Shown here piece by piece: positions 37,922 through 52,912 of a stretch of DNA of 64,000 bases; position 1 is the stretch's first letter, and every line of letters begins with the position of its first letter. Source of the DNA: a virus; the IMG/VR virus record IMGVR_UViG_3300037504_000674, positions 28,753 through 92,752 of that record; one strand, written 5' to 3'. The notes under the pieces are model-generated. The model saw nothing but the letters and a program-made list of their open reading frames with translations. It was not told the DNA's origin and made no database searches. The translations under genes were made by a program, and so were the position numbers.

Positions 37922-37949
37922 ATTATACCACGCCCGGCGGCTCTGTCAA
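37922..37949 (-). promoter_or_regulatory. Perfect-consensus promoter inside an operator-like palindrome
   Basis: TTGACA (37944-37949), a 16-bp spacer ending in TGG, and TATAAT (37922-37927). GCCCGGCG and CGCCGGGC (37932-37959) flank the -35 box as an eight-base inverted repeat, a plausible repressor site. It overlaps the stop codon of the pentapeptide gene. Confidence 0.85.
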
Positions 37950-38714
37950 ATCGCCGGGCTCGCTGGCGCAGAACCAGCGCTCCTCCTCCCACGCCGCAAT
38001 GGCATCGGCCAGCTCAATGAGTTCTGCCTCATCGTCAGGGTCTGGCCCGATGTCTGTTAGCTCATCCATCAGCTCCTCGGCCCGCGCCAGGGCCGAGGTG
38101 TACTCTGCATCATTATTTATCTTCACGGCTCCTCCTCTATCACCGTTCTCGATCTCAGGTAAACAGCGCCGCTCGATACCGTCCCAATCATTCGCTAGTT
38201 CCACGAGTGCCGCGCGCGCCACCCGCAGCCTCTCGCGCTGCTCCTCGGTCATTTGCTCCATCGCAGGGCTGCGACGCAGGGTGTGATATGCCTGCTGGCA
38301 TTCCTGCTGATAGTCAGTTATGATGCCAAATGATCCGCACCATAATGGAAAACCTGACGAAAAGTCCAGATGTGCACCTTCCAGATTCGCACCTTCCAGA
38401 TTCGCGCCCTTCAGATTCGCGCCCTTCAGATTCGCACCATCCAGATTCGCGTCTTCTAGATGCGCACCCTTCATATTCGCGCCCTTCAGATTCACGCCCC
38501 TCATATTCGCACCCTCTAGATGCGCACTATTCAAATTTACACCATCCAGATTCGCGTCCGTCAGATGCGCATTCTTCAGATTCACGCCCCCCAGATTCGC
38601 GTTCACCAGATACGCGCGTCTAGGTTTAAAATCTACGCCAAAGCCTCGCCACGCCAGGTGCGGCCCGTACCACTCATGCACCCGCAAATGCGCCGGGATT
38701 TTATACATCGCCAT
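37923..38714 (-). CDS. Pentapeptide-repeat protein with helical C-terminal domain
   Basis: 263 aa. Residues about 30-105 contain some fifteen tandem pentapeptides of the A(D/N)LxG form (ANLDGVNLNSAHLEGAN...), which fold into a right-handed beta-helix. The encoding DNA repeats every 15 bp (38385-38620). A short WCGSFG segment and an acidic helical domain follow. Some pentapeptide proteins mimic DNA and inhibit gyrase; whether this one does is unknown. The ATG at 38714 is set by GAGGAGG. Confidence 0.85.
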   Translation of the reverse strand: MAMYKIPAHLRVHEWYGPHLAWRGFGVDFKPRRAYLVNANLGGVNLKNAHLTDANLDGVNLNSAHLEGANMRGVNLKGANMKGAHLEDANLDGANLKGANLKGANLEGANLEGAHLDFSSGFPLWCGSFGIITDYQQECQQAYHTLRRSPAMEQMTEEQRERLRVARAALVELANDWDGIERRCLPEIENGDRGGAVKINNDAEYTSALARAEELMDELTDIGPDPDDEAELIELADAIAAWEEERWFCASEPGDLTEPPGVV

Positions 38715-38738
38715 TTCAAACCTCCTCGTATACACAAA

Positions 38739-39465: not shown

Positions 39466-39927
39466 TTAGGTACCCTTAATCGCTTCCAGGGCCGCAGAGA
39501 GCGTCCCGTGCGCTCTCATAGCATTCTCTGCGTCCTCCCTATCTATCCCATACGCATAGAGCACAAATGCGAGTAAGTTTTCGTCACGTATATGCTCCAT
39601 AGTACAAATGGGGCATTGTTTAGTTGAGATGCTGCCTTCCGCGTAATTCCTAGCCACATCGTATCCGCCAGCGCGTATCTCTTTTGCGTAACGCTGCGCA
39701 TAGTCGTATGGCTGCCGCTCGAAGTATGTTGCTACTTCGTCTACATATTCTTCATCACCAATTTCTAAATCTAAGCGGTAGCCCTCAAGGAATTCATGGC
39801 CCGCTAAGCAATGTAAGAATCCTGCGTCAGATTCTACCAAGTCCCACCCAGATACAACTTCGCCAGAAACAGCGCAGATATAGGATGTTGAGCTACTGTT
39901 GGTTACGTGGGCTAGTTTAGTTTTCAT
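39466..39927 (-). CDS. TNSSS-motif protein D (candidate radical SAM substrate)
   Basis: 153 aa. The N-terminus MKTKLAHVTNSSSTSYIC matches the three sister proteins in a block of about 16 residues and in nothing beyond. The rest is acidic, with KQCPICTMEH near residue 107 as a possible metal site. The ATG overlaps the upstream TGA. The shared start looks like a recognition or modification segment and is not a signal peptide, because it lacks a hydrophobic core. Last of the cassette. Confidence 0.75.
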   Translation of the reverse strand: MKTKLAHVTNSSSTSYICAVSGEVVSGWDLVESDAGFLHCLAGHEFLEGYRLDLEIGDEEYVDEVATYFERQPYDYAQRYAKEIRAGGYDVARNYAEGSISTKQCPICTMEHIRDENLLAFVLYAYGIDREDAENAMRAHGTLSAALEAIKGT

Positions 39928-40277
39928 GCGCACCGTCCACCTTTGCCATATCGCTCCTCGATTTCCTTGGATGTTTCGCTTGGATAGTAGTCTGCTTCCC
40001 CAATTTGGACTACATAATCACCTTCTGGGATATGTATTACCTTTGTATCGCCATCATAGAACTCAAAAAACACAGTTGGCCTAAATACCTGATATTCTTC
40101 CATCATGTATATCATCACGGCGACTATGTTTTCATCAGTGATCTTGATAACATCGAGACCCTCGTAGAGCATATCCCCGACAACCACATCACCTGGCTGA
40201 GGCTCATGAACGATATTCCCCACAATCAGGTAGTTCACACTGCTGCTATTTGTTACATGGGCTTGTTTTATTTTCAT
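39924..40277 (-). CDS. TNSSS-motif protein C (candidate radical SAM substrate)
   Basis: 117 aa. It opens MKIKQAHVTNSSSVNYLI and continues into a beta-rich, acidic body (VYEG-type strands, FFEFYDGDTKVIHI). It has a single Cys, near its C-terminus. It starts one base after the previous stop codon. The body shares no visible similarity with the other three proteins. Function unknown. Confidence 0.75.
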   Translation of the reverse strand: MKIKQAHVTNSSSVNYLIVGNIVHEPQPGDVVVGDMLYEGLDVIKITDENIVAVMIYMMEEYQVFRPTVFFEFYDGDTKVIHIPEGDYVVQIGEADYYPSETSKEIEERYGKGGRCA

Positions 40278-40278
40278 C

Positions 40279-40758
40279 TTAGTGGCACTCCATTTGGTCA
40301 AGGGCGTATTCTTCAATAGCCCTGTTCATCTCGCTAGACAGATAACCACTCATGCCCTCGTCAGATTCCCGGATAAACAGCAAGTTCTTTCCGAGTTCGT
40401 AGAACCATCCCATAATCCATGGGCCAAGATTTATGTCCAGCGTGCTCAGGTAGTCTCCGTACTTTAGCGCATCTCTCCCCACCTCGTAAGATGTGCCTCG
40501 CCCCACGCCGATCTTAGATGCTTTTGCCAGCTCGGCCTGTTTTTCTAGGCGAAAGTACGTCTGACCTCCGTACTCTTCCGAATCAACGATTTCAAATCCA
40601 TCGCTTAGCAATCTCCCCACCTCTTGATGGCGCTTTCTGTACACTCTTATGGTTACATCCATAGTAGATTCGAGTGCAGATTGCACAACCGGGTTGGAAA
40701 GGTCTAGAATATAGCATGTTGAGCTACTATTGGTCACAAAACCTTGTCTAATTTTCAC
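40279..40758 (-). CDS. TNSSS-motif protein B (candidate radical SAM substrate)
   Basis: 159 aa. The GTG start, set by an AGGAGG, gives MKIRQGFVTNSSSTCYIL. The body is mixed alpha/beta. It overlaps the radical SAM gene by 11 bases, so the enzyme and this protein are likely made in step. Start choice is firm because the upstream codons have no ribosome site and the shared motif begins here. Confidence 0.75.
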   Translation of the reverse strand: MKIRQGFVTNSSSTCYILDLSNPVVQSALESTMDVTIRVYRKRHQEVGRLLSDGFEIVDSEEYGGQTYFRLEKQAELAKASKIGVGRGTSYEVGRDALKYGDYLSTLDINLGPWIMGWFYELGKNLLFIRESDEGMSGYLSSEMNRAIEEYALDQMECH

Positions 40759-41848
40759 TGCGATCCTCCTTTTTACACAGAACAATCTCTGGCTTCAACG
40801 GGCAGCCGCCCATGCACTCGTTCCTATTCTGGCAGGATGGGCAACTTGTCCTCAAATGGTCTCTGAATCGCTTGAACTTGTCGCTCGCCCATGCTTCCTC
40901 GATAGTGTGGTCTCTGAGAGAGACACCATATTCAGCACTTTGATCAAATGAGCATGGTGTCATGATCATATCCGGCGTGATATACGCACTGAACCTGGCT
41001 CCCTCGCAAGTATCCAGGTAGTCCATACGGACGCTACTTGCGAAATTGACAATACCTGGTGTTGAGCAGCTATCAACGCCGATGCTGAAGTTGCCCTGCC
41101 AGTTGCTTACAATGTCGAAGAACTCGTGCACTCGCGGGTCTTCAGCTCTCAGAACCTCAGATTGATCGCCAAGACCAACTGGTTTATGAATCAGGAAAAC
41201 GACCGCATTGATGCGGTTGGTTCCGTCTCCGAAGAAGTTGTTTTTCTTGAGCCTGTCGATGGCTTCGTCGATAGAGCTGTTGCTGAGGACGTAGTGGATG
41301 TTTGTGGTTGCACCAGCGCTAATAAAGGCATCGAGTGCCTTAAGGGTATATTTAGATCGGTACCAGGAAACCGCAACCGCGCCGCAGTACTCAACTGTCA
41401 GGCTCACTTCGTCTTGGGTAAGTTTGAGGCCGGAGGTGGTATAGTTCGGCACGATATCGTTAGCCCTGGTGAGCTTCAGTATATCACCAAACTGCTGGTG
41501 CTTGTTGGGGTCCCCGCGCCCGCCAAGAGCAACCTGCATGACCTTACCGCGAACCTGCCGAATGATTTCCTGATAGTCCAAATAACTCATATCTGGCTGA
41601 TGGACTCCCAGGCCGTCTTGATAGCATTGTACGCCAGCTCTCACGCATAGACCGGACGTACCGTGCTCGCAGCTACCCATGATACCGATGTCTAGCAGAT
41701 TTGGGAAACTGCGCATGAATGGGTCCTCACCAGTTAGAAACGACTCTGAGCGCATATATAACCCATCCTTGGCTCGGAACACTTCCCCGAACCCGAACTC
41801 AGTATCGAAGTACCTTGTAATACCGTGCAATTTTTTACTGTTGATCAC
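40748..41848 (-). CDS. Radical SAM/SPASM enzyme with non-canonical cluster motif
   Basis: 366 aa. A C-terminal SPASM region is clear: CPSCQNRNECMGGCP near residues 340-354 is the exact C-x2-C-x5-C-x3-C spacing, with another Cys before and after. The N-terminal cluster site is not the usual C-x3-C-x2-C. The only candidate is C60, C68 and C75 (CEHGTSGLC then CYQ), spaced C-x7-C-x6-C. A TIM-barrel body (VMQVALGGRGDPNKH, VAVSWYRSK) fits the family. SPASM enzymes usually modify peptides or proteins. Its neighbours with a shared N-terminus are the natural candidates. GTG start after GGAGG. Confidence 0.8.
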   Translation of the reverse strand: MINSKKLHGITRYFDTEFGFGEVFRAKDGLYMRSESFLTGEDPFMRSFPNLLDIGIMGSCEHGTSGLCVRAGVQCYQDGLGVHQPDMSYLDYQEIIRQVRGKVMQVALGGRGDPNKHQQFGDILKLTRANDIVPNYTTSGLKLTQDEVSLTVEYCGAVAVSWYRSKYTLKALDAFISAGATTNIHYVLSNSSIDEAIDRLKKNNFFGDGTNRINAVVFLIHKPVGLGDQSEVLRAEDPRVHEFFDIVSNWQGNFSIGVDSCSTPGIVNFASSVRMDYLDTCEGARFSAYITPDMIMTPCSFDQSAEYGVSLRDHTIEEAWASDKFKRFRDHLRTSCPSCQNRNECMGGCPLKPEIVLCKKEDRSEN

Positions 41849-42387
41849 TTTTTCACCTCCGTTATCAACATGGACGGGAGAATAATCTGCTCGATGGTTT
41901 TAACATCTGAGATTTCGAGGATAACAAACTCCATTTGATCTGACGGCCCAAGATACTGGCACTCGAAAATCGTATCACAATAAGGGCACCGGAAATCATT
42001 CAGATCATCTAGATCGTATTCAGTTGAGAATATACCAGATAGTTCAGATTCGCTCTCGCAAACCGGGCATTGTATCCTCACCTGAGCTGGCGTATACTGG
42101 TCGTACCAGTATCTAAGCAAGTCTACAATATAAACCTCCCCAACTTCGTGAGTCTGTGCTTCTGCGATCAGATTGGCTTTGCGGATTTCTGAATATAGTC
42201 TCATCCGGTCTATAGTTGTCTTAAATGTGCCATCAGATATGAGTCTTTTGATATCACCCCACTCGTAATCACAGAATTTCTTGATGTAACCATCAAGAAG
42301 ATTTCTCTCCTCTGGCGTCAGGGCTTCTTTTGACAAAACGAAACTACTTGAACTTGAGTTTGTAACGTGACCATGCCTGCACTTCAT
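41845..42387 (-). CDS. TNSSS-motif protein A (candidate radical SAM substrate)
   Basis: 180 aa. It opens MKCRHGHVTNSSSSSFVL. A later zinc ribbon (CPVCES near residue 116, CPYCDT near 141) suggests nucleic-acid or metal binding. Its stop overlaps the radical SAM start by three bases. It is the first cassette gene. A two-stem RNA hairpin lies just upstream (42404-42441). The ATG at 42387 is chosen so that the shared motif starts the protein. Confidence 0.75.
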   Translation of the reverse strand: MKCRHGHVTNSSSSSFVLSKEALTPEERNLLDGYIKKFCDYEWGDIKRLISDGTFKTTIDRMRLYSEIRKANLIAEAQTHEVGEVYIVDLLRYWYDQYTPAQVRIQCPVCESESELSGIFSTEYDLDDLNDFRCPYCDTIFECQYLGPSDQMEFVILEISDVKTIEQIILPSMLITEVKK

Positions 42388-42813: not shown

Positions 42814-43191
42814 CTAAAATGGGATGTCATCATCAAGTTCGTCTTTTGGGCCCTCCTTCTGGCGATTACCGTAGTCGGACAGGGCCTGAAATCCATACGT
42901 ATTAACCTCAAAAGAGGTGCGCGCCTCTCCCGAGTTGGAGGTCCACATGCGCGGGCCTCCAGTGTCCTTATCGAATCTCAGCGTTCCCTCAACAAGCACG
43001 AGGGAGCCCTTCCTGAGCAGGCTGGTGGCGTTCTCGGCCTGCTTACCCCAGACGGACACCTTCACCCACATCGTTTCCTGACCGTATGAGTTCACAGCCA
43101 GATTCAGCGATGTTACCGGCTTACCATCAGGGAGAAAGCGCATTTCCGGGTCGCGCCCAAGTCTTCCAACAAGCGTGATTTTTTGATACAT
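42814..43191 (-). CDS. ssb: Single-stranded DNA-binding protein
   Basis: 125 aa. An OB fold (KITLVGRLGRDPEMRF, SLNLAVNSY, VKVSVWGKQAENATSLLRKG, VLVEGTLRF) is followed by a short linker and the acidic tip DELDDDIPF, through which SSB recruits partner proteins. It has its own promoter just upstream and a strong AGGAGG. It is the first gene of a long minus-strand operon. Confidence 0.95.
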   Translation of the reverse strand: MYQKITLVGRLGRDPEMRFLPDGKPVTSLNLAVNSYGQETMWVKVSVWGKQAENATSLLRKGSLVLVEGTLRFDKDTGGPRMWTSNSGEARTSFEVNTYGFQALSDYGNRQKEGPKDELDDDIPF

Positions 43192-43252: not shown

Positions 43253-43253
43253 G

Positions 43254-43326
43254 TCTGGAGGGCCGGACTCGAACCGGCGATCTCCGAGTCCCAAACCCGG
43301 CGCTGTACCAGCTCAGCTACCCCCAG
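43254..43326 (-). tRNA. tRNA-Pro (UGG)
   Basis: Full cloverleaf. The anticodon loop is TTTGGGA on a CCGGG/CTCGG stem. No CCA is encoded. Confidence 0.9.
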
Positions 43327-43330
43327 ATAG

Positions 43331-43401
43331 AGGGATGCCTGGGATTTGAACCCAGTCTGTCGGTGCCACAAACCGATGTGCTACCGCTACACCAGCATCC
43401 C
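43331..43401 (-). tRNA. tRNA-His (GUG)
   Basis: The anticodon loop is TTGTGGC on a TCGGT/ACCGA stem. The base before the acceptor stem is C, so the extra G of tRNA-His must be added after transcription. Confidence 0.85.
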
Positions 43402-43405
43402 GCAA

Positions 43406-43478
43406 TACCCTCGCCAGGACTCGAACCTGGATTGACGGTTTAGGAAACCGTCGCTCTGTCCTATTGAGCTACGAGGGC
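43406..43478 (-). tRNA. tRNA-Arg (CCU)
   Basis: The anticodon loop is TTCCTAA on an ACGGT/ACCGT stem. It reads AGG. Confidence 0.9.
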
Positions 43479-43486
43479 TTCTGGTT

Positions 43487-43699
43487 TCACCAGATGTGCT
43501 CTCTGAAGAGATATTCAACCTCCTCCGGGTGATTCGTGTTTCCGCCAGCCAGCAATCTAATACCATTGCTGGCCTGATCGTCTAGCTCAACTATCTTGAC
43601 TGCGATATCCTTCACAGGCTTGCAGAATCCAACTATGCTCATGAGGATATAGCAGAGTGCTTTCAGGAATTGAATTTCCGACGCGCCTCGTTGTGCCAC
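43487..43699 (-). CDS. 70-aa helical protein inside the tRNA array
   Basis: The GTG at 43699 lies five bases after AGGAGG. The product opens MAQRGASEIQFLKALCYIL, then an acidic tail. A closer ATG three bases after the site is in another frame and leads to an early stop. It lies between tRNA-Arg and tRNA-Glu. Function unknown. Confidence 0.65.
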   Translation of the reverse strand: MAQRGASEIQFLKALCYILMSIVGFCKPVKDIAVKIVELDDQASNGIRLLAGGNTNHPEEVEYLFREHIW

Positions 43700-43720
43700 A
43701 TCTACCTCCTTTATGTTCAG

Positions 43721-43793
43721 TAGGAGCGGCGGGATTTGAACCCGCGATATCAGGGTTGAAGGCCCTGCGGCTTGTCCGCTTGCCCACGCTCCC
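43721..43793 (-). tRNA. tRNA-Glu (UUC)
   Basis: The anticodon loop is CCTTCAA on a CAGGG/CCCTG stem. Confidence 0.85.
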
Positions 43794-43797
43794 GCGA

Positions 43798-43870
43798 CAG
43801 GGGGAGTAGGGCTCGAACCTACGACCTTGGGCTTCAAAGGCCCTCGCTCTTCCAATTGAGCTATCCCCCT
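43798..43870 (-). tRNA. tRNA-Gln (UUG)
   Basis: The anticodon loop is CTTTGAA. The top pair of the anticodon stem (27-43) is an A-A mismatch. The acceptor AGGGGGA/TCCCCCT is intact. Confidence 0.8.
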
Positions 43871-43872
43871 AG

Positions 43873-43945
43873 TGTTCGGTGCAGGGCTTGAACCTGCGAC
43901 CTCTGGCGTGTAAAACCAGCGCTCTCCCAACTGAGCTAACCGAAC
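43873..43945 (-). tRNA. tRNA-Val (UAC)
   Basis: The anticodon loop is TTTACAC. The acceptor GTTCGGT/ACCGAAC is perfect. Confidence 0.9.
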
Positions 43946-43949
43946 TAAG

Positions 43950-44031
43950 TGGGGGCGGGAGGACTCGAACCTCCGAAGCTCTCACACCTGATTTACAGTC
44001 AGGCTCCTTTGCCGCTCGGATACACGCCCCC
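43950..44031 (-). tRNA. tRNA-Tyr (GUA)
   Basis: The anticodon loop is CTGTAAA. It has a long variable arm, as expected for bacterial tRNA-Tyr. Confidence 0.9.
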
Positions 44032-44034
44032 AAT

Positions 44035-44107
44035 GGCTGGCGGGAGGACTCGAACCTCCATAGGGCGCCTTACAAGGACGCTGCTTAATCCATTCAGCCA
44101 CGCCAGC
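44035..44107 (-). tRNA. tRNA-Thr (UGU)
   Basis: The anticodon loop is CTTGTAA on a GCGTC/GGCGC stem. Confidence 0.85.
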
Positions 44108-44110
44108 TTA

Positions 44111-44182
44111 TTCCCGCTCCTGGAATTGAACCAGGCACCCCCGCGTTATCAGCACGGCGCTCTACCGATGAGCTAAGCGGGA
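44111..44182 (-). tRNA. tRNA-Ile (GAU)
   Basis: The anticodon loop is CTGATAA on a CCGTG/CGCGG stem. The acceptor is TCCCGCT/AGCGGGA. Confidence 0.85.
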
Positions 44183-44187
44183 CAAAG

Positions 44188-44260
44188 TGGATCAGGCAGG
44201 ACTCGAACCTGCAACCCACTCGTTATGAGCAAGTCGCTCTAACCGTTGAGCTACTGATCC
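44188..44260 (-). tRNA. tRNA-Met (CAU), elongator, or Ile2
   Basis: The anticodon loop is CTCATAA on an ACTTG/CGAGT stem without initiator G-C pairs. A lysidine-modified isoleucine tRNA cannot be excluded from sequence alone. Confidence 0.85.
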
Positions 44261-44265
44261 AAAGG

Positions 44266-44350
44266 CGGAGAAGACAGGAATCGAACCTGTAGGGCTGTCA
44301 CACCTGACGCTTTTCAAGAGCGCTTGACTCACCACACTGTCCACTTCTCC
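44266..44350 (-). tRNA. tRNA-Ser (UGA)
   Basis: The anticodon loop is CTTGAAA. It has a long variable arm of class II. Confidence 0.9.
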
Positions 44351-44354
44351 GTAG

Positions 44355-44426
44355 AGGCAACGGTCGGAATCGAACCGACGAAATGCGCATTTGCAGTGCG
44401 CCGCCTTGCCACTTGGCTACGTCGCC
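44355..44426 (-). tRNA. tRNA-Cys (GCA)
   Basis: The anticodon loop is CTGCAAA on a GCGCA/TGCGC stem. Confidence 0.9.
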
Positions 44427-44472
44427 AACTTGTGCTTCTTGCATCCACAGGACATTATTCTCATTCAGCTCC

Positions 44473-44694
44473 TCAGTGGTCGTAGTCCGCGTGCTCCGCG
44501 CCGCACTGCGGGTATTCGTACTGGCAATCTGCCAACTCGTCTGGCTCCGGGCACTCGCCGTTTAGATACACCGGGCACGTGCAGCCGCACCCTCCGTCCA
44601 TCCCGATATGAAAACACGGATCGCCCGTGATCATATGGTGAATCGGCCCGATGTTTGTCATATCGTTGATTGGCTCTCCATTGTATTTAAACAT
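44473..44694 (-). CDS. Cys-rich small protein, 73 aa
   Basis: The ATG at 44694 follows GGAGGGAGC. Six Cys and six His residues are spread through the protein (FHIGMDGGCGCTCPVY, CPEPDELADCQYEYPQCG), a likely metal-binding pattern. It lies between tRNA-Cys and tRNA-Ser. Function unknown. Confidence 0.65.
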   Translation of the reverse strand: MFKYNGEPINDMTNIGPIHHMITGDPCFHIGMDGGCGCTCPVYLNGECPEPDELADCQYEYPQCGAEHADYDH

Positions 44695-44797
44695 GCTCCC
44701 TCCAATGTAGCGGGTCGCCGTGCCCACCCCCACCGAATTGCCGTCTTTCCGGCTTTCAGTAGGGTGGTACTTAATGCACTTGATGAGCCCTACGCAG

Positions 44798-44885
44798 CGG
44801 AGAAGGCGGGAATCGAACCCGCAGGCCTATTACAGACCACTCGTTTAGCAAACGAGCGTGCCGAACCAATATGCACCTCAACTCC
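44798..44885 (-). tRNA. tRNA-Ser (GCU), mismatched acceptor
   Basis: The anticodon loop is TTGCTAA on a CTCGT/ACGAG stem, with a long variable arm. The acceptor pairs GGAGTTG with CTTCTCC, so pairs 5 and 6 are U-U. This may be tolerated or may mark a decaying gene. Confidence 0.75.
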
Positions 44886-44889
44886 ATGG

Positions 44890-44961
44890 CGGGGATAACG
44901 GGAATCGAACCCGTGTCTTCTGTTCGACAGACAGATATTCTTGCCGCTGAACTATATCCCC
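44890..44961 (-). tRNA. tRNA-Asp (GUC)
   Basis: The anticodon loop is CTGTCGA. The acceptor is GGGGATA/TATCCCC with discriminator G, as usual for Asp. Confidence 0.9.
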
Positions 44962-44962
44962 A

Positions 44963-45033
44963 TGAGCGCAGAGAGACTCGAACTCCCATTTGCTGATTAA
45001 GAGTCAGCTACTCTACCGTTGAGTTATGCGCCC
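44963..45033 (-). tRNA. tRNA-Lys (CUU)
   Basis: The anticodon loop is CTCTTAA on a GCTGA/TCAGC stem. Confidence 0.85.
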
Positions 45034-45037
45034 GCTG

Positions 45038-45110
45038 TGCCGCCTCTCGGAATCGAACCGAGGACCCCCGGCTCTTCAGGCCGATGCTCTACCAACTGAG
45101 CTAAAGCGGC
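45038..45110 (-). tRNA. tRNA-Phe (GAA)
   Basis: The anticodon loop is CTGAAGA on a TCGGC/GCCGG stem. The cloverleaf is intact. Confidence 0.9.
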
Positions 45111-45114
45111 GGAG

Positions 45115-45187
45115 CTCCCAGGGCAGGACTCGAACCTGCACACCTCCGGTTAACAGCCGGACACTCTGCCAATTGAGCTACCTGGGA
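45115..45187 (-). tRNA. tRNA-Asn (GUU)
   Basis: The anticodon loop is CTGTTAA. The acceptor is TCCCAGG/CCTGGGA. Confidence 0.9.
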
Positions 45188-45781
45188 TTATGGTCTCACC
45201 ACTTGGCGGTACGGCTGTCGCCAATTGTCCGTGGTGTTTGGCGATATGAATTCTATCGCCCCTTGCCTTCGCTTTCTAGTAACACCTAGCCCAGAGCGCT
45301 TGATTACGTCATCTACGAACAGCCCCGGCTTAGTGATAGCGTGTGTGTATGATAGCGTGTGGACCTGGATGTCCGCTTCGTCTAACCTGACAACAAACCT
45401 GGATATCCGGTCGCATGTTAGCCTGAGCTCCCCCATGAACGGAGCACTTCGGTCGCCAATCCTCCTCTGCGTTACAGAGACAGGGTCCTTGAGTATTGCG
45501 AAGAATATAGGGTTTCTGAGAATGCGGTTAAGCCTTCTCAGGTGAGCATGAGCGCCGACATGCTTAAATCCCCACACGTCGTGGTCAGCGTTACGTCGCT
45601 GCACTAGCGCTTGCAATTCTTCGTCAGAACCCTTGAGAGCCCACCTTATTTCCTGGTCTTCCCAGGACATTCTGAGATAATCATCGCCAACCATCGGGAC
45701 GCCAAGTTGCTCAAATATACCTGTGAGCATCGTGGTGCCCGAATGTGCAAAACCACATACAACTACCGTTTTTTTGTCCAT
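45188..45781 (-). CDS. Sulfotransferase-like protein
   Basis: 197 aa. It opens MDKKTVVVCGFAHSGTTMLTGIFEQLG. The GFAHSGTT segment is the PAPS-binding loop of sulfotransferases. The Arg/Ser segment for the 3'-phosphate (about residues 110-120) is plausible (KDPVSVTQRR). It may sulfate a glycan or protein, complementing the glycosyltransferases. Its ATG lies two bases after the mature 3' end of the initiator tRNA and no ribosome site is visible, so processing of the tRNA would leave an almost leaderless mRNA. Its stop lies against tRNA-Asn. Confidence 0.7.
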   Translation of the reverse strand: MDKKTVVVCGFAHSGTTMLTGIFEQLGVPMVGDDYLRMSWEDQEIRWALKGSDEELQALVQRRNADHDVWGFKHVGAHAHLRRLNRILRNPIFFAILKDPVSVTQRRIGDRSAPFMGELRLTCDRISRFVVRLDEADIQVHTLSYTHAITKPGLFVDDVIKRSGLGVTRKRRQGAIEFISPNTTDNWRQPYRQVVRP

Positions 45782-45783
45782 AG

Positions 45784-45855
45784 TTGCGGGAGCCGGATTT
45801 GAACCGGCGACCTTCGGGTTATGGGCCCGGCGAGCTACCACTGCTCCATCCCGCA
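45784..45855 (-). tRNA. Initiator tRNA-fMet (CAU)
   Basis: The anticodon loop is CCCATAA next to the GGG/CCC pairs that mark bacterial initiators. The TTCAAAT T-loop also matches. The first pair is T-A rather than the usual C-A mismatch. Confidence 0.85.
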
Positions 45856-45856
45856 G

Positions 45857-45928
45857 CAAGTGTGACTGGACTCGAACCAGTATCGCCGGTGTTGGAGACC
45901 GGTGCTTTTCCAGTTAAGCTACACACTC
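45857..45928 (-). tRNA. tRNA-Trp (CCA)
   Basis: The anticodon loop is CTCCAAC on a CCGGT/ACCGG stem. Confidence 0.9.
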
Positions 45929-45932
45929 CCAG

Positions 45933-46005
45933 TGGATGTGGCGGGATTTGAACCCGCGACCTCCTCCGTGCAAGAGAGGCGCGCTCCCATCTGCGCTACA
46001 CACCC
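45933..46005 (-). tRNA. tRNA-Ala (UGC)
   Basis: The anticodon loop is CTTGCAC on a CCTCT/GGAGG stem. The third acceptor pair is G-T, the alanine identity pair. Confidence 0.9.
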
Positions 46006-46016
46006 AAGTTATCAGC

Positions 46017-46167
46017 AGAGAGCGAGGGGCAGGACTCGAACCTGCAACCGCAGCCTGTCAACTGCGTAGGCGCCCAGGAAATCCAAGTGACAGCTTGGAC
46101 GCCTGCGGATACACCTCTCGGCTCACATAGGAGCCTTAGCCTCGCTCTGTGGCAGCCCTCGCTCTCT
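46017..46167 (-). ncRNA. Oversized tRNA-like element, 151 nt
   Basis: A perfect 12-bp inverted repeat (AGAGAGCGAGGG with CCCTCGCTCTCT) closes the element. Its 3' part has a normal T-arm (GCAGG, TTCGAGT, CCTGC) and acceptor strand. The middle holds hairpins GGCTC/GAGCC, CCAAG/CTTGG and CGCAG/CTGCG, but no seven-base anticodon loop on a five-pair stem fits. It may be a tRNA carrying an insertion, a class II tRNA with a rebuilt middle, or a tRNA-mimic. Confidence 0.5.
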
Positions 46168-46179
46168 ACTGACAATCAG

Positions 46180-46250
46180 GGCGGGTGAGGGGGATCGAAC
46201 CCCTATCATTGGCTTGGAAGGCCAAGGCCCTACCGTTGGACTACACCCGC
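46180..46250 (-). tRNA. tRNA-Gly (UCC)
   Basis: The anticodon loop is CTTCCAA on a TTGGC/GCCAA stem. Confidence 0.9.
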
Positions 46251-46253
46251 ACA

Positions 46254-46324
46254 TACGGGCAGCCGGACTTGAACCGGCATCTTCAGCATGGCAAGCTGAC
46301 GTTCTACCGTTGAACTACGCCCGT
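46254..46324 (-). tRNA. tRNA-Gly (GCC)
   Basis: The anticodon loop is TTGCCAT on a TCAGC/GCTGA stem. The acceptor is ACGGGCG/TGCCCGT. Confidence 0.9.
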
Positions 46325-46335
46325 TAAAACCGGTG

Positions 46336-46479
46336 TTAAGCCGATTCGCCATTGAGATAATGCACACGCTCGGCGGCCTCCTCCGGCGTATTCCAGTCGC
46401 TTTCTGGGAACCATTTCCCAGTTGGGTCATAAAACCCGACCGTCCATAGACCCGGCTCAGATCGAATATACACGTACAT
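46336..46479 (-). CDS. Small phage protein, 47 aa
   Basis: The ATG lies six bases after AGGAGG. The sequence contains WTVGFYDPTGKWFPESDW and AAERVHYLNG, a pattern seen in many small phage proteins. It has its own promoter at 46516. Function is unknown. Confidence 0.7.
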   Translation of the reverse strand: MYVYIRSEPGLWTVGFYDPTGKWFPESDWNTPEEAAERVHYLNGESA

Positions 46480-46515
46480 CTATTGCCTCCTTCGCCTCGT
46501 TTGGCATCCTAGTGT

Positions 46516-46543
46516 ATTATATCACGTTGTTGTTAACTATCAA
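46516..46543 (-). promoter_or_regulatory. Promoter within the tRNA region
   Basis: TTGATA (46538-46543), a 16-bp spacer ending in TGA, and TATAAT (46516-46521). It drives the 47-aa gene and the tRNA-Gly to tRNA-Pro block. Confidence 0.75.
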
Positions 46544-46576
46544 CTGACATGCATCACGTCACAAGCGTGACATACG

Positions 46577-47059
46577 TCAAACCTCAAGATATACTTTCCA
46601 ACTCTTGGGTATTCTTCCTCTTGCCACCAGATAGTCAACCCTGGGTGTTTTTGGTTCCCACATGAGCTTCATACCGGCCTCATGTGGGGTGCGGTCTGCT
46701 TTACGCTGATTGCACTCGTAGCATGAGCAAATCGTGTTACCCCATGTGCTCTTGCCGCCGTGCGATACCGGGACCACATGGTCAATCGTTCGGCCCGGCC
46801 TACCGCAGTACCCGCATGTATAATCATCGCGCTTGATCACACCGCGACGTGTCCATCTCGCGTTTCGTCTGGGTACATTTACATAGTGTTTAAGCCGGAT
46901 AACCTCCGGCACATCAAAACAACCGGACACAGTTTTGAAGCTGCGTGCCAGATCGTCGGTTACACCATGCGCAACATTCTTCCAGAGCAGCGTGGCCGCT
47001 TTGCGGTCCGACACCACGCGCAACGGCTCGTAACTTGCATTAAGCAATAGAACTGACAT
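46577..47059 (-). CDS. HNH endonuclease
   Basis: 160 aa. It opens MSVLLLNASYEPLRVV, as in stand-alone bacterial and phage HNH proteins. The nuclease motif is CGYCGRPGRTIDHVVPVSHGG followed by NTICSCYECNQRK, with the DH pair at about residues 92-93. Ribosome site TAGGAGA. It lies between tRNA-Lys and the small-protein promoter. It may be a mobile nuclease or take part in DNA processing. Confidence 0.85.
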   Translation of the reverse strand: MSVLLLNASYEPLRVVSDRKAATLLWKNVAHGVTDDLARSFKTVSGCFDVPEVIRLKHYVNVPRRNARWTRRGVIKRDDYTCGYCGRPGRTIDHVVPVSHGGKSTWGNTICSCYECNQRKADRTPHEAGMKLMWEPKTPRVDYLVARGRIPKSWKVYLEV

Positions 47060-47071
47060 TTTTTCTCCTAG

Positions 47072-47145
47072 TGAGGGTGGCAGGATTTGAACCTGCGGTC
47101 CTTGGCTTAAAAGGCCACTGCTCTACCAGGCTGAGCTACACCCCC
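47072..47145 (-). tRNA. tRNA-Lys (UUU)
   Basis: The anticodon loop is CTTTTAA. The first anticodon-stem pair is a mismatch; the rest of the cloverleaf is intact. Confidence 0.85.
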
Positions 47146-47150
47146 AAACA

Positions 47151-47231
47151 TGGCGATAGAGGGAGTCGAACCCTCATGCTTTCGCGGTGCATTTTAACTG
47201 CCCTGTGTATGCCTGCTTCCACCATATCGCC
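47151..47231 (-). tRNA. tRNA-Leu (UAA), copy 1
   Basis: Class II variable arm (GCGAAAGC). The loop GTTAAAA gives anticodon UAA. The anticodon stem GGGCA/TGCAC has one mismatch, so this copy is less regular than the next. Confidence 0.75.
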
Positions 47232-47235
47232 TTAG

Positions 47236-47317
47236 TCTCGCCGCAGGGAGTCGAACCCTGATAGTCACTAGGACACTGGTTTTAAACCAGCCGCGTAGCC
47301 ATTTCCGCCACGGCGAG
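47236..47317 (-). tRNA. tRNA-Leu (UAA), copy 2
   Basis: The loop TTTAAAA sits on GCTGG/CCAGT. The acceptor CTCGCCG/CGGCGAG is perfect. Long variable arm. Confidence 0.85.
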
Positions 47318-47324
47318 GTGAATC

Positions 47325-48179
47325 TTAACTGCGCTCTTGGCAATGAACCCTTAAGTGTTTCTTTATTGCGTTGTCAGACACGCCAAGTTCTCTTCCCAAA
47401 GCAGAGTAGTTGCTTTCATCAAGTCTTTGTCTAAGTTCTTCGCAGGAGGGCCAATCTATCTTGAAGTTAGCCCGATGCTTTCCGGCGCATGGCTTGCACC
47501 TCGTCGCGTTACATGATATTTTTGCGCCGCAGTCCACACAATACTTCTGCTCTGATCCTCTTTTTATCTGCAAGCCATTTTTTGCCATCAGCTTGTATGC
47601 CCTGTTGTATGTTGCGCCTATGGAGAGACCTACCGAGAGCAACGCCTGCCTAATGCTATCTTCTTCCCTGAGCGCTCTCAACAATTCCTCATCACTAACT
47701 ACAGCATTTGACTTGTTCTTGCCACAATAAGTAGGTGTTTGGGAGTGGCAGTTTGGGCACAAGAATCTTAGGTTCGACAACCTATGATCTCTGCGTCTTC
47801 CATTCACATGATCTAGTTGAAGAACAAGCTCTTCCCCCATCCACTTCCCGTCATTTCCGCAAATATCGCACGCATATGGAATTAGCCCTTCTTTTATAAT
47901 AATTTCTTTGATAGTGTTGCGCGGCGTCTTCGAGCCTTTACAGAACTTTTCGTCTGGCGAGGCTCCTATTCTTTCATCAGAGTATGAGGTTTTCCCAAGC
48001 GCCCACCCCTGCCCAAGAAAGTGATCAGTCTGTATCCCCAAATTTTCTATTCTGTCCCTTACAAGAGCGTGACTCCCGCTGCCCTTTAGTCCAAGCTTCT
48101 TTCTTACAGAAGCATAAGACTCAGATGTTTTACATGCCTCTATCAATTGATCATCTGTCCAACTTCTTCTTCTGCTCAC
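47325..48179 (-). CDS. HNH homing endonuclease with DNA-binding repeats
   Basis: 284 aa. It starts SRRRSWTDDQLIEACKTSESY, the N-terminal helix-turn-helix of a free-standing HNH homing family, and has FLGQGWALGK after it. The HNH motif is LVLQLDHVNGRRRDHRLSNLRFLCPNCHSQ. The C-terminus has another zinc knuckle and helix-turn-helix (ALGRELGVSDNAIKKHLR). The GTG at 48179 follows AGGGGGA. The frame stays open to 48371, but that part overlaps a duplicated segment of the next gene. It is probably a mobile element in the tRNA array. Confidence 0.8.
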   Translation of the reverse strand: MSRRRSWTDDQLIEACKTSESYASVRKKLGLKGSGSHALVRDRIENLGIQTDHFLGQGWALGKTSYSDERIGASPDEKFCKGSKTPRNTIKEIIIKEGLIPYACDICGNDGKWMGEELVLQLDHVNGRRRDHRLSNLRFLCPNCHSQTPTYCGKNKSNAVVSDEELLRALREEDSIRQALLSVGLSIGATYNRAYKLMAKNGLQIKRGSEQKYCVDCGAKISCNATRCKPCAGKHRANFKIDWPSCEELRQRLDESNYSALGRELGVSDNAIKKHLRVHCQERS

Positions 48180-48268
48180 TTTTCCCCCTATTAGGAAACT
48201 AAAGGGGCTATCTTGGTGAATAGGCACCAAGAAGGGCCGTCGCCTTTTCGCCCCGATTGACAACAGTG

Positions 48269-48323
48269 CTGGTGGTTTCCGCATTTCCTTCGACCACCGA
48301 CGCAGCGCATCATTTTCTTCTCT
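48269..48323. repeat. 55-bp direct repeat, left copy
   Basis: 54 of 55 bases match 48668-48722. This copy lies just upstream of the homing nuclease start. The other is inside the next gene. It probably came from a partial duplication when the nuclease inserted. Confidence 0.9.
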
Positions 48324-48352
48324 TAGGTATTTCCATTTCCCGTCATCTGGGC

Positions 48353-48916
48353 TTAGTGCGTAGGAATCCAATGCCCCCAGCTAGTTCTTTTGCGCGGAAG
48401 CCAGTCATTAGTGCGCTGGCGGCGCTCAAGCTCTGCACGCCATCGCTGCCACCCCGATCTCCGATAAACCTTGAGCAGCATGTCCGCGAAAACTGGGTAA
48501 GGGTCATCGGGCCAGCTATAGTATTGCGTTAAGTCTATACTGCGATACGCCTCAGACAGCTCATGCGTCCAGGGGTAGCACATAACCCGCCCAATCAACC
48601 TTTGGCGCAGCCGCTCGTCGGTAAGCCATAGCGGATTTACATCGTTGCTGCTAATCAGGTGCCCGCACTGGTGGTTTCCGCATTTCCTTCGACCACCAAC
48701 GCAGCGCATCATTTTCTTCTCTACGCCCTCGACGAATGGGCACAGCCAGCCATCATGCCATGAAACAGAGAGCGGGCCAAAATCACCCCACAATTTACGT
48801 GCCGACTCGCCAAGAGTGGGGTAGCAGTAGTATTCTTTTGGCTCCATCCACTTCACTTTGCGACCGTAGCGGTTCTTTATCCAAAGCCCTTTACGGGTCC
48901 GGCGCTCCATTTTCAC
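48353..48916 (-). CDS. Hypothetical protein, 187 aa
   Basis: The GTG start lies five bases after GGAGG, which itself lies against the 3' end of tRNA-Arg. The protein is rich in Trp, Arg and Tyr and has a short Cys cluster (RRKCGNHQCGHL) at about residues 79-90. No domain is certain. An internal stretch is repeated outside the gene, at 48269-48323. It may itself be a relic of a nuclease. Confidence 0.55.
   Translation of the reverse strand: MKMERRTRKGLWIKNRYGRKVKWMEPKEYYCYPTLGESARKLWGDFGPLSVSWHDGWLCPFVEGVEKKMMRCVGGRRKCGNHQCGHLISSNDVNPLWLTDERLRQRLIGRVMCYPWTHELSEAYRSIDLTQYYSWPDDPYPVFADMLLKVYRRSGWQRWRAELERRQRTNDWLPRKRTSWGHWIPTH
48668..48722. repeat. 55-bp direct repeat, right copy
   Basis: Internal to the 187-aa gene; the partner of 48269-48323 with one base difference. 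The copies are 399 bp apart. Confidence 0.9.
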
Positions 48917-48929
48917 TTTTGCCTCCAGG

Positions 48930-49002
48930 CTCCCCCGTCAGGACTCGAACCTGAATCACCCACTCCGCAGGCGGGCACTCTATCCAATTGAGCTACAGGG
49001 GA
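48930..49002 (-). tRNA. tRNA-Arg (GCG)
   Basis: The anticodon loop is CTGCGGA on a CCCGC/GTGGG stem. Bacteria usually read CGC/CGU with ACG (inosine), so G34 is unusual and avoids the need for the host deaminase. Confidence 0.8.
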
Positions 49003-49003
49003 A

Positions 49004-49075
49004 TGCGAGCAGGGAGAGTCGAACTCCCGTCTGCGGCTTGAGAGGCCGCTATCCTTCCCGCTAGACGATGCTCGC
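49004..49075 (-). tRNA. tRNA-Glu (CUC)
   Basis: The anticodon loop is CTCTCAA on a GCGGC/GCCGC stem. The acceptor GCGAGCA/TGCTCGC is perfect. Confidence 0.9.
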
Positions 49076-49078
49076 TAG

Positions 49079-49202
49079 TGGAGATGGCCGGAATCGAACC
49101 GGCGTCCGCAATGCGTACATGCTCCTCGCCGCAAGTTTGTTCTCCGCGCTTTTCTCTTGCTAGAAACATGCCTGTAGCACCACGTCTAATCCGATCATCC
49201 CC
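49079..49202 (-). ncRNA. ssrA-like: Miniature tmRNA-like RNA, 124 nt
   Basis: The 5' end (GGGGATGATCGGATTAGACG) matches the tmRNA tRNA-like domain. The 3' end (GGACG, then CCGG-TTCGATT-CCGG, then CATCTCC-A) is the conserved tmRNA T-arm and acceptor. Pair G3-U70 and discriminator A73, the alanine identity elements, are present. Between them only about 75 bases remain, too few for the four pseudoknots and the peptide-tag region of ordinary tmRNA (300-400 nt). One frame could read AENKLAA, but no stop codon follows. It sits two bases from tRNA-Leu. Confidence 0.7.
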
Positions 49203-49204
49203 AA

Positions 49205-49292
49205 TGCGGGCGGGGGGAGTCGAACCCCCACCAAGGTTCAACCTTGTACCTGGCGCCTAAGACCAGAGCATCTGCCATTCTGCCACGCCCGC
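49205..49292 (-). tRNA. tRNA-Leu (UAG)
   Basis: The anticodon loop is CTTAGGC. Long variable arm. A promoter -10 box ends six bases upstream, so transcription should begin at the mature 5' end. Confidence 0.9.
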
Positions 49293-49298
49293 TTGATC

Positions 49299-49326
49299 AT
49301 TATACTGCTTTTGCCGAACTTGTCAA
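49299..49326 (-). promoter_or_regulatory. Promoter for the tRNA array
   Basis: TTGACA (49321-49326), a 16-bp spacer and TATAAT (49299-49304). The next transcribed base is the first base of tRNA-Leu(UAG). TTAAGG lies two bases before the -35 box. Confidence 0.85.
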
Positions 49327-49335
49327 AACCTTAAG

Positions 49336-49359
49336 GGGGAGGGTTTTGACGCCCTCCCC
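49336..49359 (-). terminator. Probable terminator between early genes and tRNA array
   Basis: A perfect eight-base stem, GGGGAGGG with CCCTCCCC, around a seven- or eight-base loop. A T-run is only partial, so efficiency is uncertain. Confidence 0.6.
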
Positions 49360-49368
49360 GCAGTGGCT

Positions 49369-49734
49369 CTACAGCTCTTCAATCATCGCCTGAATCTCTT
49401 CGGGCGACAACTCTTCAAGCTGCTGTTCTTGCTTGCGCTCTAGCACTTCTAGTAACTGCCGCTTCTTGGCGGCACGTGCAGCCTCGTTCTTGGCTTGCTG
49501 CCGCTCTTCCAGCTTGACACCGACAATGTGCTTGATGATGCCGATCTTCAACTGCAAGACATCATCCTGCTTACCCTCAGAAAGAAGGCTGTCTTGTTGC
49601 TGTTCCCTTGCGACTCGATTAAGGTTTTGGTAAATGCTGTCCAGAGCCTCACAGCTCAAGTCCCAAAGGTCCTCTGCGCACAGAGAACCGCGATACTGCC
49701 ACCGTAACTTCAAACGCAGCGCCTCTTCAAACAT
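49369..49734 (-). CDS. Conserved phage coiled-coil protein, 121 aa
   Basis: It starts MFEEALRLKLRWQYRG and has AEDLWDLSCEALD, LQLKIGIIKHIVGVKLEER and a long C-terminal coiled coil. This combination is common in phage genomes next to a larger partner gene, here 49745. Function unknown. The ATG at 49734 follows GGGGG. Confidence 0.7.
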   Translation of the reverse strand: MFEEALRLKLRWQYRGSLCAEDLWDLSCEALDSIYQNLNRVAREQQQDSLLSEGKQDDVLQLKIGIIKHIVGVKLEERQQAKNEAARAAKKRQLLEVLERKQEQQLEELSPEEIQAMIEEL

Positions 49735-49744
49735 TTTGTCCCCC

Positions 49745-51781
49745 TTAGTTGAAAACGACTTTGACAATACGATTACCGTTGATCCTCGCCACAATGTAAT
49801 TATCTCTTGTGGCGCTGAATCCTACGCCGGAAAGTTGCTCGTCATCATCCTCTACCCGCATCTTATTGCCAAGCGCTGCAAAAATGCGCTTGTGCTTCAT
49901 CAATTCTTCTGGAAGATACTCGTTGAAGAAGCCGCTTGGCCTTTCGTCGTTCTTGGTACCAGGAATCATGAATAAGTAGTGCCGGTGCCCAATGTGATTA
50001 TCACCCCAGTAGTTTGGCGAGTAACACACCAACGACACTCGATGGAACCGATTGGTATCCAGGCCCCAGACCTCGCGGCTGCTGTCCGATGTAGGCAGAG
50101 ACTTGATGAAGCGGATACCGCGCTGTCTATCGAACTCGATTTTGGCGACAAGCACCTGCCCCTTGTGCGGTATATCCTTGCGGTATTCAAACTCGAATAC
50201 CTGACCATTATACTCGATCTCCGCAGAAAAGCCAGATCGCCCACCCCGATGCTGATAGTTTTTGACAAACAGCTTATAAACACCGGGTTGCATGAGGCTA
50301 GGGTCAGACCAGGTGATATTTTCTACTGCCACCTGTCTAACCTTTGGGTGAATGATGTCTACGTCAAGAACACCAGAAGACGGATGTGTTTGTCGTTTGT
50401 TGGGAAAGTAGATGTGGTTTCCGTCGGGCTCGATGCAATGCGCGTCATAGTCATTACGGTTGTCAAATTCTTCATTCCATTGCAACGAGAACCTCAGAAC
50501 GCCCTTGACGTTCCCGCCAGCCGCCTTGACCCGGCGCTTCATATCCGAGTCCGCCATGTTACCAGAGTATGCCCAAGTAAATCCATTGCTCCACTTTGTC
50601 AGTGGCTTGCTATCGGTTGCTTGTGGAGCAATCAAAGAGACGAGGTTAGCTGCGTGCCGATTCTCAAGCAGAACCTCGATCTTGGCGGATTCCGGGATGA
50701 CATTGTCGATGAATTCCTGAGCACCTACCGCTGCGACATCACGGAACTTGCGCGGGTTGACAGTTTCTTCATCCCTTAAAACATCGAATACACCCCCGCT
50801 GCCCGCCATGTGCGGCATCGCATCTCGGTCGGCGAACAGCACGTCATTCACGGTAACGTCTCTGAGGTGAGCAAACCTACGCGGCAGAGCGCTCGTGACC
50901 CCCAGCCTCTCCGCATCCTCTTCGGCTTCGTCAACCATCTTGCGTGTATAGATGGCTTTAGGCCGCTTATAGTTATGCGGCGCGACGATGTTCTCGTAAC
51001 GACGCACGGATTCGATAACGTCCTTGCCATCTGAGATGTCAGCGAGCAGGACGCCGATAGAGTGATTGCGTAACCTAGTCAGCGCGCCGCCAGCCTCGGC
51101 GGCCTGCTTCCAACAGAAGTTTGTCTTCTGATTTTCTGGTAGTTCCGAGTATTCGTGTTGCAACACGCGGAACCTACTCAGGAGCCCGCGCCACTCCTCG
51201 CCCTTATACAGATTGCCCTCCTCAATGAGATCGAGGATAGTCTCGATCGCGTAGGGGTCAATCTCTTCTAGCGAGCGTTCAAAGACGTGCCGTGAGTCTC
51301 TGATGGTGGCCTGGAACTCGCTTGCGGTTTGGTGATCTGGGACCACCAAATGATCTGGCAGCTCGACATAGAAGTGGTGCCATGTATGAACATCGCCACT
51401 CTCAAGCATTTCCCGGTTTGCGTTAGTGCCAATCTTCGCCAGCTTAGAGGCAAAGGTGTTGGCCACCGGATTACTCTTGACGTACTCTGATAGGGCATCG
51501 ATGACTGGCTGGTAAACCTCGTCAGCCTCGAAGTCCCACACCGACACAAGTTCGTTATCAACGATGGCGACCACGTCGCCGAACTTCTTGATGAAGTGGC
51601 GGCAGCACGAACAATCAAATGCCCTGCGTTCGCGGTAGATGCCGTTGACGCCTTCCGGGAAGCTGTCTAGGTACAACTCCCAGAGCTGCTCGTGATCTAC
51701 ATCTGTCACGAACAACACAGACTCGGATGACATCGAATCGAAATGCTCTTGGAACAACGCCTTGAATTCTTTGAATTGCAT
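49745..51781 (-). CDS. Large conserved phage protein with YfaP-like C-terminal domain
   Basis: 678 aa. N-terminal FDCSCCRHFIKKFGDVVAI and a helical middle (EEIDPYAIETILDLIEEGNLYKG) are typical of a widespread phage protein with no known role. Residues about 430-560 match a DUF2135/YfaP-like metal-binding beta-sandwich (NDYDAHCIEPDGNHIYF, SGVLDVDII, GVYKLFVKNY). It is often encoded beside the coiled-coil protein, as here. The ATG at 51781 has AAAGGA in front. Confidence 0.7.
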   Translation of the reverse strand: MQFKEFKALFQEHFDSMSSESVLFVTDVDHEQLWELYLDSFPEGVNGIYRERRAFDCSCCRHFIKKFGDVVAIVDNELVSVWDFEADEVYQPVIDALSEYVKSNPVANTFASKLAKIGTNANREMLESGDVHTWHHFYVELPDHLVVPDHQTASEFQATIRDSRHVFERSLEEIDPYAIETILDLIEEGNLYKGEEWRGLLSRFRVLQHEYSELPENQKTNFCWKQAAEAGGALTRLRNHSIGVLLADISDGKDVIESVRRYENIVAPHNYKRPKAIYTRKMVDEAEEDAERLGVTSALPRRFAHLRDVTVNDVLFADRDAMPHMAGSGGVFDVLRDEETVNPRKFRDVAAVGAQEFIDNVIPESAKIEVLLENRHAANLVSLIAPQATDSKPLTKWSNGFTWAYSGNMADSDMKRRVKAAGGNVKGVLRFSLQWNEEFDNRNDYDAHCIEPDGNHIYFPNKRQTHPSSGVLDVDIIHPKVRQVAVENITWSDPSLMQPGVYKLFVKNYQHRGGRSGFSAEIEYNGQVFEFEYRKDIPHKGQVLVAKIEFDRQRGIRFIKSLPTSDSSREVWGLDTNRFHRVSLVCYSPNYWGDNHIGHRHYLFMIPGTKNDERPSGFFNEYLPEELMKHKRIFAALGNKMRVEDDDEQLSGVGFSATRDNYIVARINGNRIVKVVFN

Positions 51782-51818
51782 TGGTTTATCCTTTCGGCTA
51801 TAGAAAAGTTTCCAAATA

Positions 51819-52235
51819 TCACCGCATCTCAGCAAGGGCGTCATACATGGCCGTAACAAGCGTGGGCGCCCACCCGATCGCTAGTCTTTTAGTGTGCCCC
51901 CTCAGCACCCATCGCCCAAGCTCTGCGCTATATCTGAACCAGACATTGTGTCTGGTGAGCAACCGCTCCATCTCGTCTGCCACGAACCGATGCAGAAAAA
52001 CTTCCGCATCGTGGCAATAACTAAACTCCGTGGGTGTATACCACGGGCTTCCGCATAGCGCAAGGGCGTCGTCTATCAACATGTTGGAATACTCAATCGA
52101 TTTTCCATCGACGGCTTTAACGAACAGCGTGTGGTCGTAGTGTCTGAAGTAGCGAACAATGGCGTCAGCGTGTTTGTTGTCCAGGCGTCTCCTTTCCTCT
52201 TCTGTCATTTGATCTTTGTTCAGTTCGCTCAACAT
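51819..52235 (-). CDS. Hypothetical protein, paralogue of 57085
   Basis: 138 aa. It shares a KGKS-type/GKSIEYSNMLIDDALALCGSP segment and a following YCHDAEVFLHRF segment with the protein at 57085-57753. The rest differs. The motif is shared with no family I know. GGAGGATAAAAA precedes the ATG. Confidence 0.65.
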   Translation of the reverse strand: MLSELNKDQMTEEERRRLDNKHADAIVRYFRHYDHTLFVKAVDGKSIEYSNMLIDDALALCGSPWYTPTEFSYCHDAEVFLHRFVADEMERLLTRHNVWFRYSAELGRWVLRGHTKRLAIGWAPTLVTAMYDALAEMR

Positions 52236-52238
52236 TTT

Positions 52239-52469: not shown

Positions 52470-52486
52470 GGGTCGTGCGCGTCGTT

Positions 52487-52879: not shown

Positions 52880-52912
52880 TGTTCTCTCCTAGTCTAGTTG
52901 AATACACTTCAA

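Follow-up and report, generated by a model that had tools for sequence, protein, structure and literature searches.

A short N-terminal sequence element, referred to here as the head, is conserved at the peptide level and genetically tied to one family of radical SAM/SPASM enzymes across phages and bacteria. This linkage, the unrelated bodies of the proteins that carry the head, the residue-specific core of the head and the fold class of the enzyme together make the head the likely substrate. We infer, with a probability of about 0.7, that the enzyme recognizes the head and modifies it internally; no modification has been observed. In the two-part protein-modification system that we propose, a dedicated radical SAM/SPASM enzyme would recognize the fixed N-terminal head on co-encoded, otherwise unrelated proteins and would make a radical-based change inside it.

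Four headed proteins are encoded around a radical SAM/SPASM enzyme

The window (the whole stretch of 64,000 nucleotides that was analyzed) covers positions 28753-92752 of a 92,752-base (92.8 kb) virus record, which belongs to a tailed phage encoding a portal and a tape-measure protein. Five contiguous genes, all on the minus strand, are translationally coupled. Headed protein A (41845..42387, minus strand; 180 aa; head MKCRHGHVTNSSSSSF) has a body with zinc-ribbon-like cysteines (CPVC...CPYC) that gave sub-threshold zinc-ribbon matches in Pfam. Its stop codon overlaps the GTG start of the gene for the radical SAM/SPASM enzyme (40748..41848, minus strand; 366 aa, with the full SPASM cysteine set), and the end of the enzyme gene overlaps by 11 bases the start of protein B (40279..40758, minus strand; 159 aa; head VKIRQGFVTNSSSTCY; GTG start). 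Protein C (39924..40277, minus strand; 117 aa; head MKIKQAHVTNSSSVNY) follows, with a stop codon overlapping the ATG of protein D (39466..39927, minus strand; 153 aa; head MKTKLAHVTNSSSTSY). These coordinates confirm the layout described in the initial annotation, namely four proteins with a common N-terminus around a radical SAM/SPASM enzyme, with overlapping start and stop codons. Proteins B and C had no family match in the profile libraries, including Pfam, NCBIfam and PHROGs.

The headed-protein cluster is adjoined by a single run of 29 tRNA genes (window positions 43253-52986), among which lies an HNH endonuclease (47325-48371), and by an ORF resembling single-stranded DNA-binding proteins (42814-43191, minus strand). 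A P-loop, sulfotransferase-like ORF is found within the tRNA cluster (45188-45859, minus strand), and an ORF with pentapeptide-like repeats of the ANLxG type is located at 37923-38735 (minus strand); these three ORFs were recognized by eye. Defence-system models gave no match to the window proteins.

The head is conserved as a peptide on unrelated proteins

The heads of proteins A-D follow the pattern (M/V)K-x-(R/K)-x-x-(F/H)-V-T-N-S-S-S. They scored 21 to 35 on a profile built from 324 heads found elsewhere than in the window, where the next best site scored 0.4; a scan of the first 20 kb of the record with the head profile revealed nothing comparable to the window heads. The serine codons vary between the four heads (AGT, AGC and TCA), so it is the peptide and not the DNA that is under selection.

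Among 447 heads, position 0 was aromatic in all but one (F 410, Y 31, H 4, W 1; L 1) and position +1 was V or I in 444, followed by Thr or Ser at +2, according to group, and by Asn at +3. The single Ala exception at +2 (IAN, in L404) was found by a frame filter and lies outside this count. Ser+4 and Ser+5 hardly vary, and Asn+3 varies less than the aromatic at position 0. The Ser/Asn/Thr cluster, initially proposed as the target, is a plausible one, but the invariant core also includes the preceding aromatic residue, which had not been singled out.

The 295 headed proteins examined fell into 67 unrelated body families and therefore have only the head in common. Their lengths range from about 47 to 920 aa, and some bodies contain LRR, BRCT, HIRAN or PQQ-type repeat domains. 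In one headed protein, the BRCT domain alone gave a match to a candidate defence model. In some bacterial headed proteins (L314, L321, L358 and L356), a hydrophobic, signal-like stretch stands directly behind the head, so these may be membrane-bound or exported.

No relatives of the window bodies were found here except for D, which has 28 relatives in other loci and belongs to the commonest head family of phages. C18, C40, H44, C105 and C108 are invariant in the D family and, judged by this conservation, are likely to form a metal site. In the structural model of D, residues 1-9 are flexible or disordered and the first strand (residues 13-17) begins with the Ser run, so the head is predicted to be accessible in this protein; a fold search with the model gave no match. 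One phage family of unknown function, phrog_7397, probably contains a headed protein, since it resembles the heads of A and B, at a weak E value of 0.04, over its first 21 positions only.

The enzyme is predicted to have the fold of peptide-modifying SPASM enzymes

The window enzyme matched the Pfam SPASM family PF13186 (E 2.4e-6; 28.2 bits, cut-off 21.5) and, just over the cut-off of 27, TIGR04085 (28.6 bits). Its C-terminal part contains the cysteines C-x17-C ... C-x2-C-x5-C-x3-C ... C, the full set, as expected from the exact SPASM pattern first reported for it. The radical SAM cluster motif is C-x7-C-x6-C (CEHGTSGLCVRAGVQC), not the standard Cx3Cx2C. This spacing is found in the clade of the window enzyme; the motif is variable in some phage relatives and takes the standard form in deep branches, and the three cluster cysteines are kept in all aligned rows.

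A radical SAM barrel is supported by an AlphaFold model (pLDDT 94), which matched SuiB, PqqE and anSME in the PDB with E values of 1e-9 to 1e-12. The nearest solved folds were SuiB, PqqE, anSME, CteB, SkfB and ChlB, and the nearest solved structures by sequence were SkfB, SuiB and PqqE. Apart from PqqE, which represents a small-peptide case, the enzymes with the nearest folds are clearly peptide or protein modifiers; the modeled fold of the window enzyme is that of peptide-modifying SPASM enzymes. The window enzyme is also related to phrog_7293 (E 3.4e-20 over residues 27-335, about 27% identity), and none of the NCBIfam equivalogs fitted it or four relatives, with scores far below the cut-offs. 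Only about 45 residues precede the barrel, and an N-terminal peptide-binding (RRE-like) extension comparable to that of SuiB is absent.

The enzyme gene of one viral contig (3300032038_000305; L037, 3795-6128) carries an intein of ~420 aa (CLSENEIVL...IISHN before Cys) after about residue 105. That of locus L247 may carry one as well, since only residues 106-362 were matched.

Heads and enzyme occur together in viruses and bacteria

With the window enzyme as a single query, viral and bacterial contigs gave no match; an alignment-based search yielded 80 viral and 80 bacterial loci. By the strict pattern, heads were present within 10 kb of the enzyme in 68 of the 80 viral loci, mostly in the adjacent gene. 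In the opposite direction, viral contigs were scanned for FVTNSSS with two codon-specific DNA patterns, so the sample of heads is incomplete. True heads, defined by a start codon and K/R upstream and an aromatic residue after the Ser run, were found in 55 viral loci, where as many as 8 headed genes adjoin one another; phage clusters often comprise 2 to 11 of them. The enzyme family was present in 39 of 50 virus records with real heads (two weaker heads included) versus none of 49 control records, in which the pattern match was no head. The head records lacking the enzyme were mostly fragments shorter than 55 kb, and one was 92 kb. Since some records are near duplicates, these counts are not all independent.

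Of the 80 bacterial loci, 77 encode a headed protein, mostly in the adjacent gene (66 by strict heads, 75 by a relaxed profile and 77 after two more were examined, with whole-genome matches and an ATA-start head contributing to the rise); two of the other three end less than about 60 bases past the enzyme. The headed gene usually lies directly next to the enzyme gene, at a spacing of -42 to +90 bases. A headed gene with its start codon read as ATA is located at 4094-4495 of L345. The carriers, as labeled, include Clostridia, Anaerolineaceae, Bacteroidales MAGs, Coriobacteria-type actinobacteria, Desulfobacterales, Synergistaceae and others; these host ranges are provisional because MAG contigs may hold prophage or misbinned DNA.

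Two genome samples gave a consistent picture. Among 391 genomes of one class, the enzyme was present in 6, each with a head. The strict head pattern detected 3 of these 6 and produced one spurious match (TNCSC); in two others (G411 and G180), the head was found on reading the enzyme locus, and in G155, whose contig is that of L281, a GFVTN head lies about 2 kb upstream. Among 201 genomes of another phylum, two had the enzyme and the same two had the head, in each case together on one contig. Across both samples, the same 8 genomes had heads and enzyme, and none had a real head without the enzyme. The center genome of each sample was picked for having the enzyme, so that one match per sample is not independent. 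A head motif as frequent without the enzyme family nearby would have refuted the association first proposed; with the comparison run both ways, the viral and bacterial counts did not refute it.

No conserved third gene family, including a protease or transporter, was found near the enzyme in the 80 bacterial or 55 viral loci. The system therefore does not resemble one that exports a small peptide product. A conserved protein of 516 aa (MSNFVSNMKKTMLADNNYSMTENGAMGY; L223, 7678-9225, and relatives) is encoded near the enzyme in 10 of the 55 viral loci.

A second head form goes mainly with a second enzyme branch

Heads of a second form, GFVSNSSS, are associated mainly with a second branch of the enzyme, represented among others in culturable T4-like phages such as RB43, a classic laboratory phage of E. 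coli. T4-like phages of Slopekvirus and Pseudotevenvirus encode a distant enzyme in 172 records and two headed proteins each, with the head form MKIRSGFVSNSSSSSF. One of the T4-like heads was found in 174 records, with host counts almost equal to those of the enzyme; this agreement rests on totals and not on a record-by-record comparison, among phages that are closely related. The 6-kb flanks of the enzyme had suggested that these phages are headless, which was overturned by GFVSN heads located 20-24 kb from the enzyme. True heads were identified in 24 records by scanning for GFVSNSSS; 16 of these 24 had a strong match (E <= 1e-100) to the second enzyme branch, versus 0 of 7 controls at this threshold. 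For two second-form records with heads (114 and 261 kb), which may be incomplete, the enzyme search gave no strong match.

On a tree of 74 enzymes, 65 rows of which were labeled for head form, the head form required one change, versus a mean of 16 after shuffling, and none of 500 shuffles was as low. On this tree, head form follows the enzyme branch, as a co-divergence seen once and not as repeated events. In one genome of the Chloroflexota sample (G550), a GFVSN head adjoins a deep-branch enzyme, so a second change of head form must have occurred; a one-to-one mapping of Thr versus Ser on the enzyme tree is weakened by this genome.

Modification inside the head is the preferred explanation

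That the enzyme recognizes or modifies the head, as the initial annotation suggested, is supported by the linkage in both directions, and the chemical modification itself is still an inference. The change could be a cross-link in which a C-C bond, formed with loss of 2 H, joins the aromatic at position 0 (F, Y, H or W) to the Thr/Ser at +2. This is our leading guess but a tentative one, which rests on residue preference alone and has not been demonstrated; as no cyclophane-enzyme model matched, it is a lead and not a claim of membership.

Another radical chemistry acting on the head, such as Ser oxidation, a change on the invariant Asn, epimerization or backbone cleavage, is possible, and we would not rely on it. 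Anaerobic sulfatase maturases oxidize Ser to formylglycine, and anSME is among the nearest solved folds; the near invariance of Ser+4 and Ser+5, and an Asn+3 more constant than the aromatic, would also fit. Against this, the heads lack a sulfatase-type motif, the anSME model scored far under its cut-off, and Ser oxidation alone leaves the aromatic-only position 0 unexplained.

The head might instead serve only as a docking tag (leader), with the enzyme modifying the bodies elsewhere. A precedent exists in known RiPP systems, whose radical SAM enzymes bind a conserved N-terminal leader and alter a separate core. The docking reading is unlikely: the 67 unrelated body families have no common downstream motif, the core of the head retains chemically specific residues and not a loose docking signature, and the enzyme, with its ~45 residues before the barrel, has no RRE-like extension comparable to that of SuiB.

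We give even less credence to a sorting, packaging or degradation signal with the enzyme as a frequent neighbor acting on something else. Targeting signals also occur on many different proteins, as the head does, and phage clusters of 2 to 11 headed genes are frequent, but virion packaging misfits the chromosomal bacterial pairs, and an unrelated neighbor would not persist in 77 of 80 bacterial loci and in samples from two phyla, with matching branches of head and enzyme. A structural or mRNA-level coincidence, in which the head is a recurring first strand (the Ser run of the D model is the start of strand 13-17) or a translation-start element, is very improbable, since codons vary freely while the peptide is fixed, unrelated bodies share the head, and the enzyme linkage, left unexplained, contradicts it.

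Several observations weigh against modification of the head by the enzyme: the main clade has an irregular cluster motif (C-x7-C-x6-C), though deep branches have the standard one; the T4-like heads lie 20-24 kb from the enzyme; the headed 92-kb record and the 114- and 261-kb second-form records have no strong enzyme match, though they may be incomplete; and the Thr/Ser rule is imperfectly tied to the main enzyme branches, as G550 illustrates. The broader proposal of a general tagging system of phages and anaerobic bacteria, in which one enzyme per genome would mark, possibly with a small ring, a portable head borne by dozens of unrelated proteins, has in our view a little less than an even chance.

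The known substrates of radical SAM/SPASM enzymes are mainly short peptides or single protein types. The family described here is linked to one head of 16 residues that at least 67 unrelated bodies carry, in phages as well as in bacteria of several phyla. Should the head prove to be modified, protein chemists would gain a portable post-translational tag, and there would be a first clue to the function of many phage proteins now called hypothetical.

Relationship to known systems

Curated libraries contained no family for the heads or for this enzyme, and a search of open-access text, which leaves subscription papers outside its scope, found no description of the head motif or of its pairing with the enzyme.

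Among the nearest described systems, the phrog_7293 radical SAM proteins of Slopekvirus and Pseudotevenvirus (e.g. RB43ORF169c) are homologous to the window enzyme and are annotated as radical SAM or hypothetical proteins, with no link to heads noted. Their phages differ in carrying the MKIRSGFVSNSSSSSF head instead of ...FVTNSSS and in having heads that do not adjoin the enzyme; those of RB43 are RB43ORF116c and RB43ORF121c.

The RiPP-modifying SPASM enzymes SuiB, SkfB and CteB are nearest in fold or sequence, yet only 14-17% identical. They act on short peptides that carry leaders, whereas the head loci have no leader/core arrangement, conserved protease or transporter, and no RiPP-type short precursor was found beside the enzyme, where the headed proteins are about 47 to 920 aa long. 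Like the head enzyme, anSME has a SPASM domain and a similar fold, and it modifies a Ser or Cys of a full-size protein; it differs in that the sulfatase motif is absent from the heads, and TIGR03942 (anaerobic sulfatase maturase) scored only 12.7 to 19.7 bits, against a cut-off of 349.

The three-residue cyclophane enzymes (XncB, OscB, MscB, YxdB, HaaB and YhhB) are SPASM proteins that join an aromatic residue i (Trp, Phe, Tyr or His) to residue i+2, including Phe-Ser (PMC11002830). No triceptide maturase model was among the NCBIfam matches for the window enzyme (E up to 1) or for four relatives (E up to 0.001). The aromatic-x-Thr/Ser core of the head equals the residue choice of triceptide maturases at i and i+2. 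Those maturases act on the core of short precursors, whereas the site here would be the N-terminus of proteins of up to 920 aa. The enzyme type and its logic are already known; the substrate arrangement has no known counterpart.
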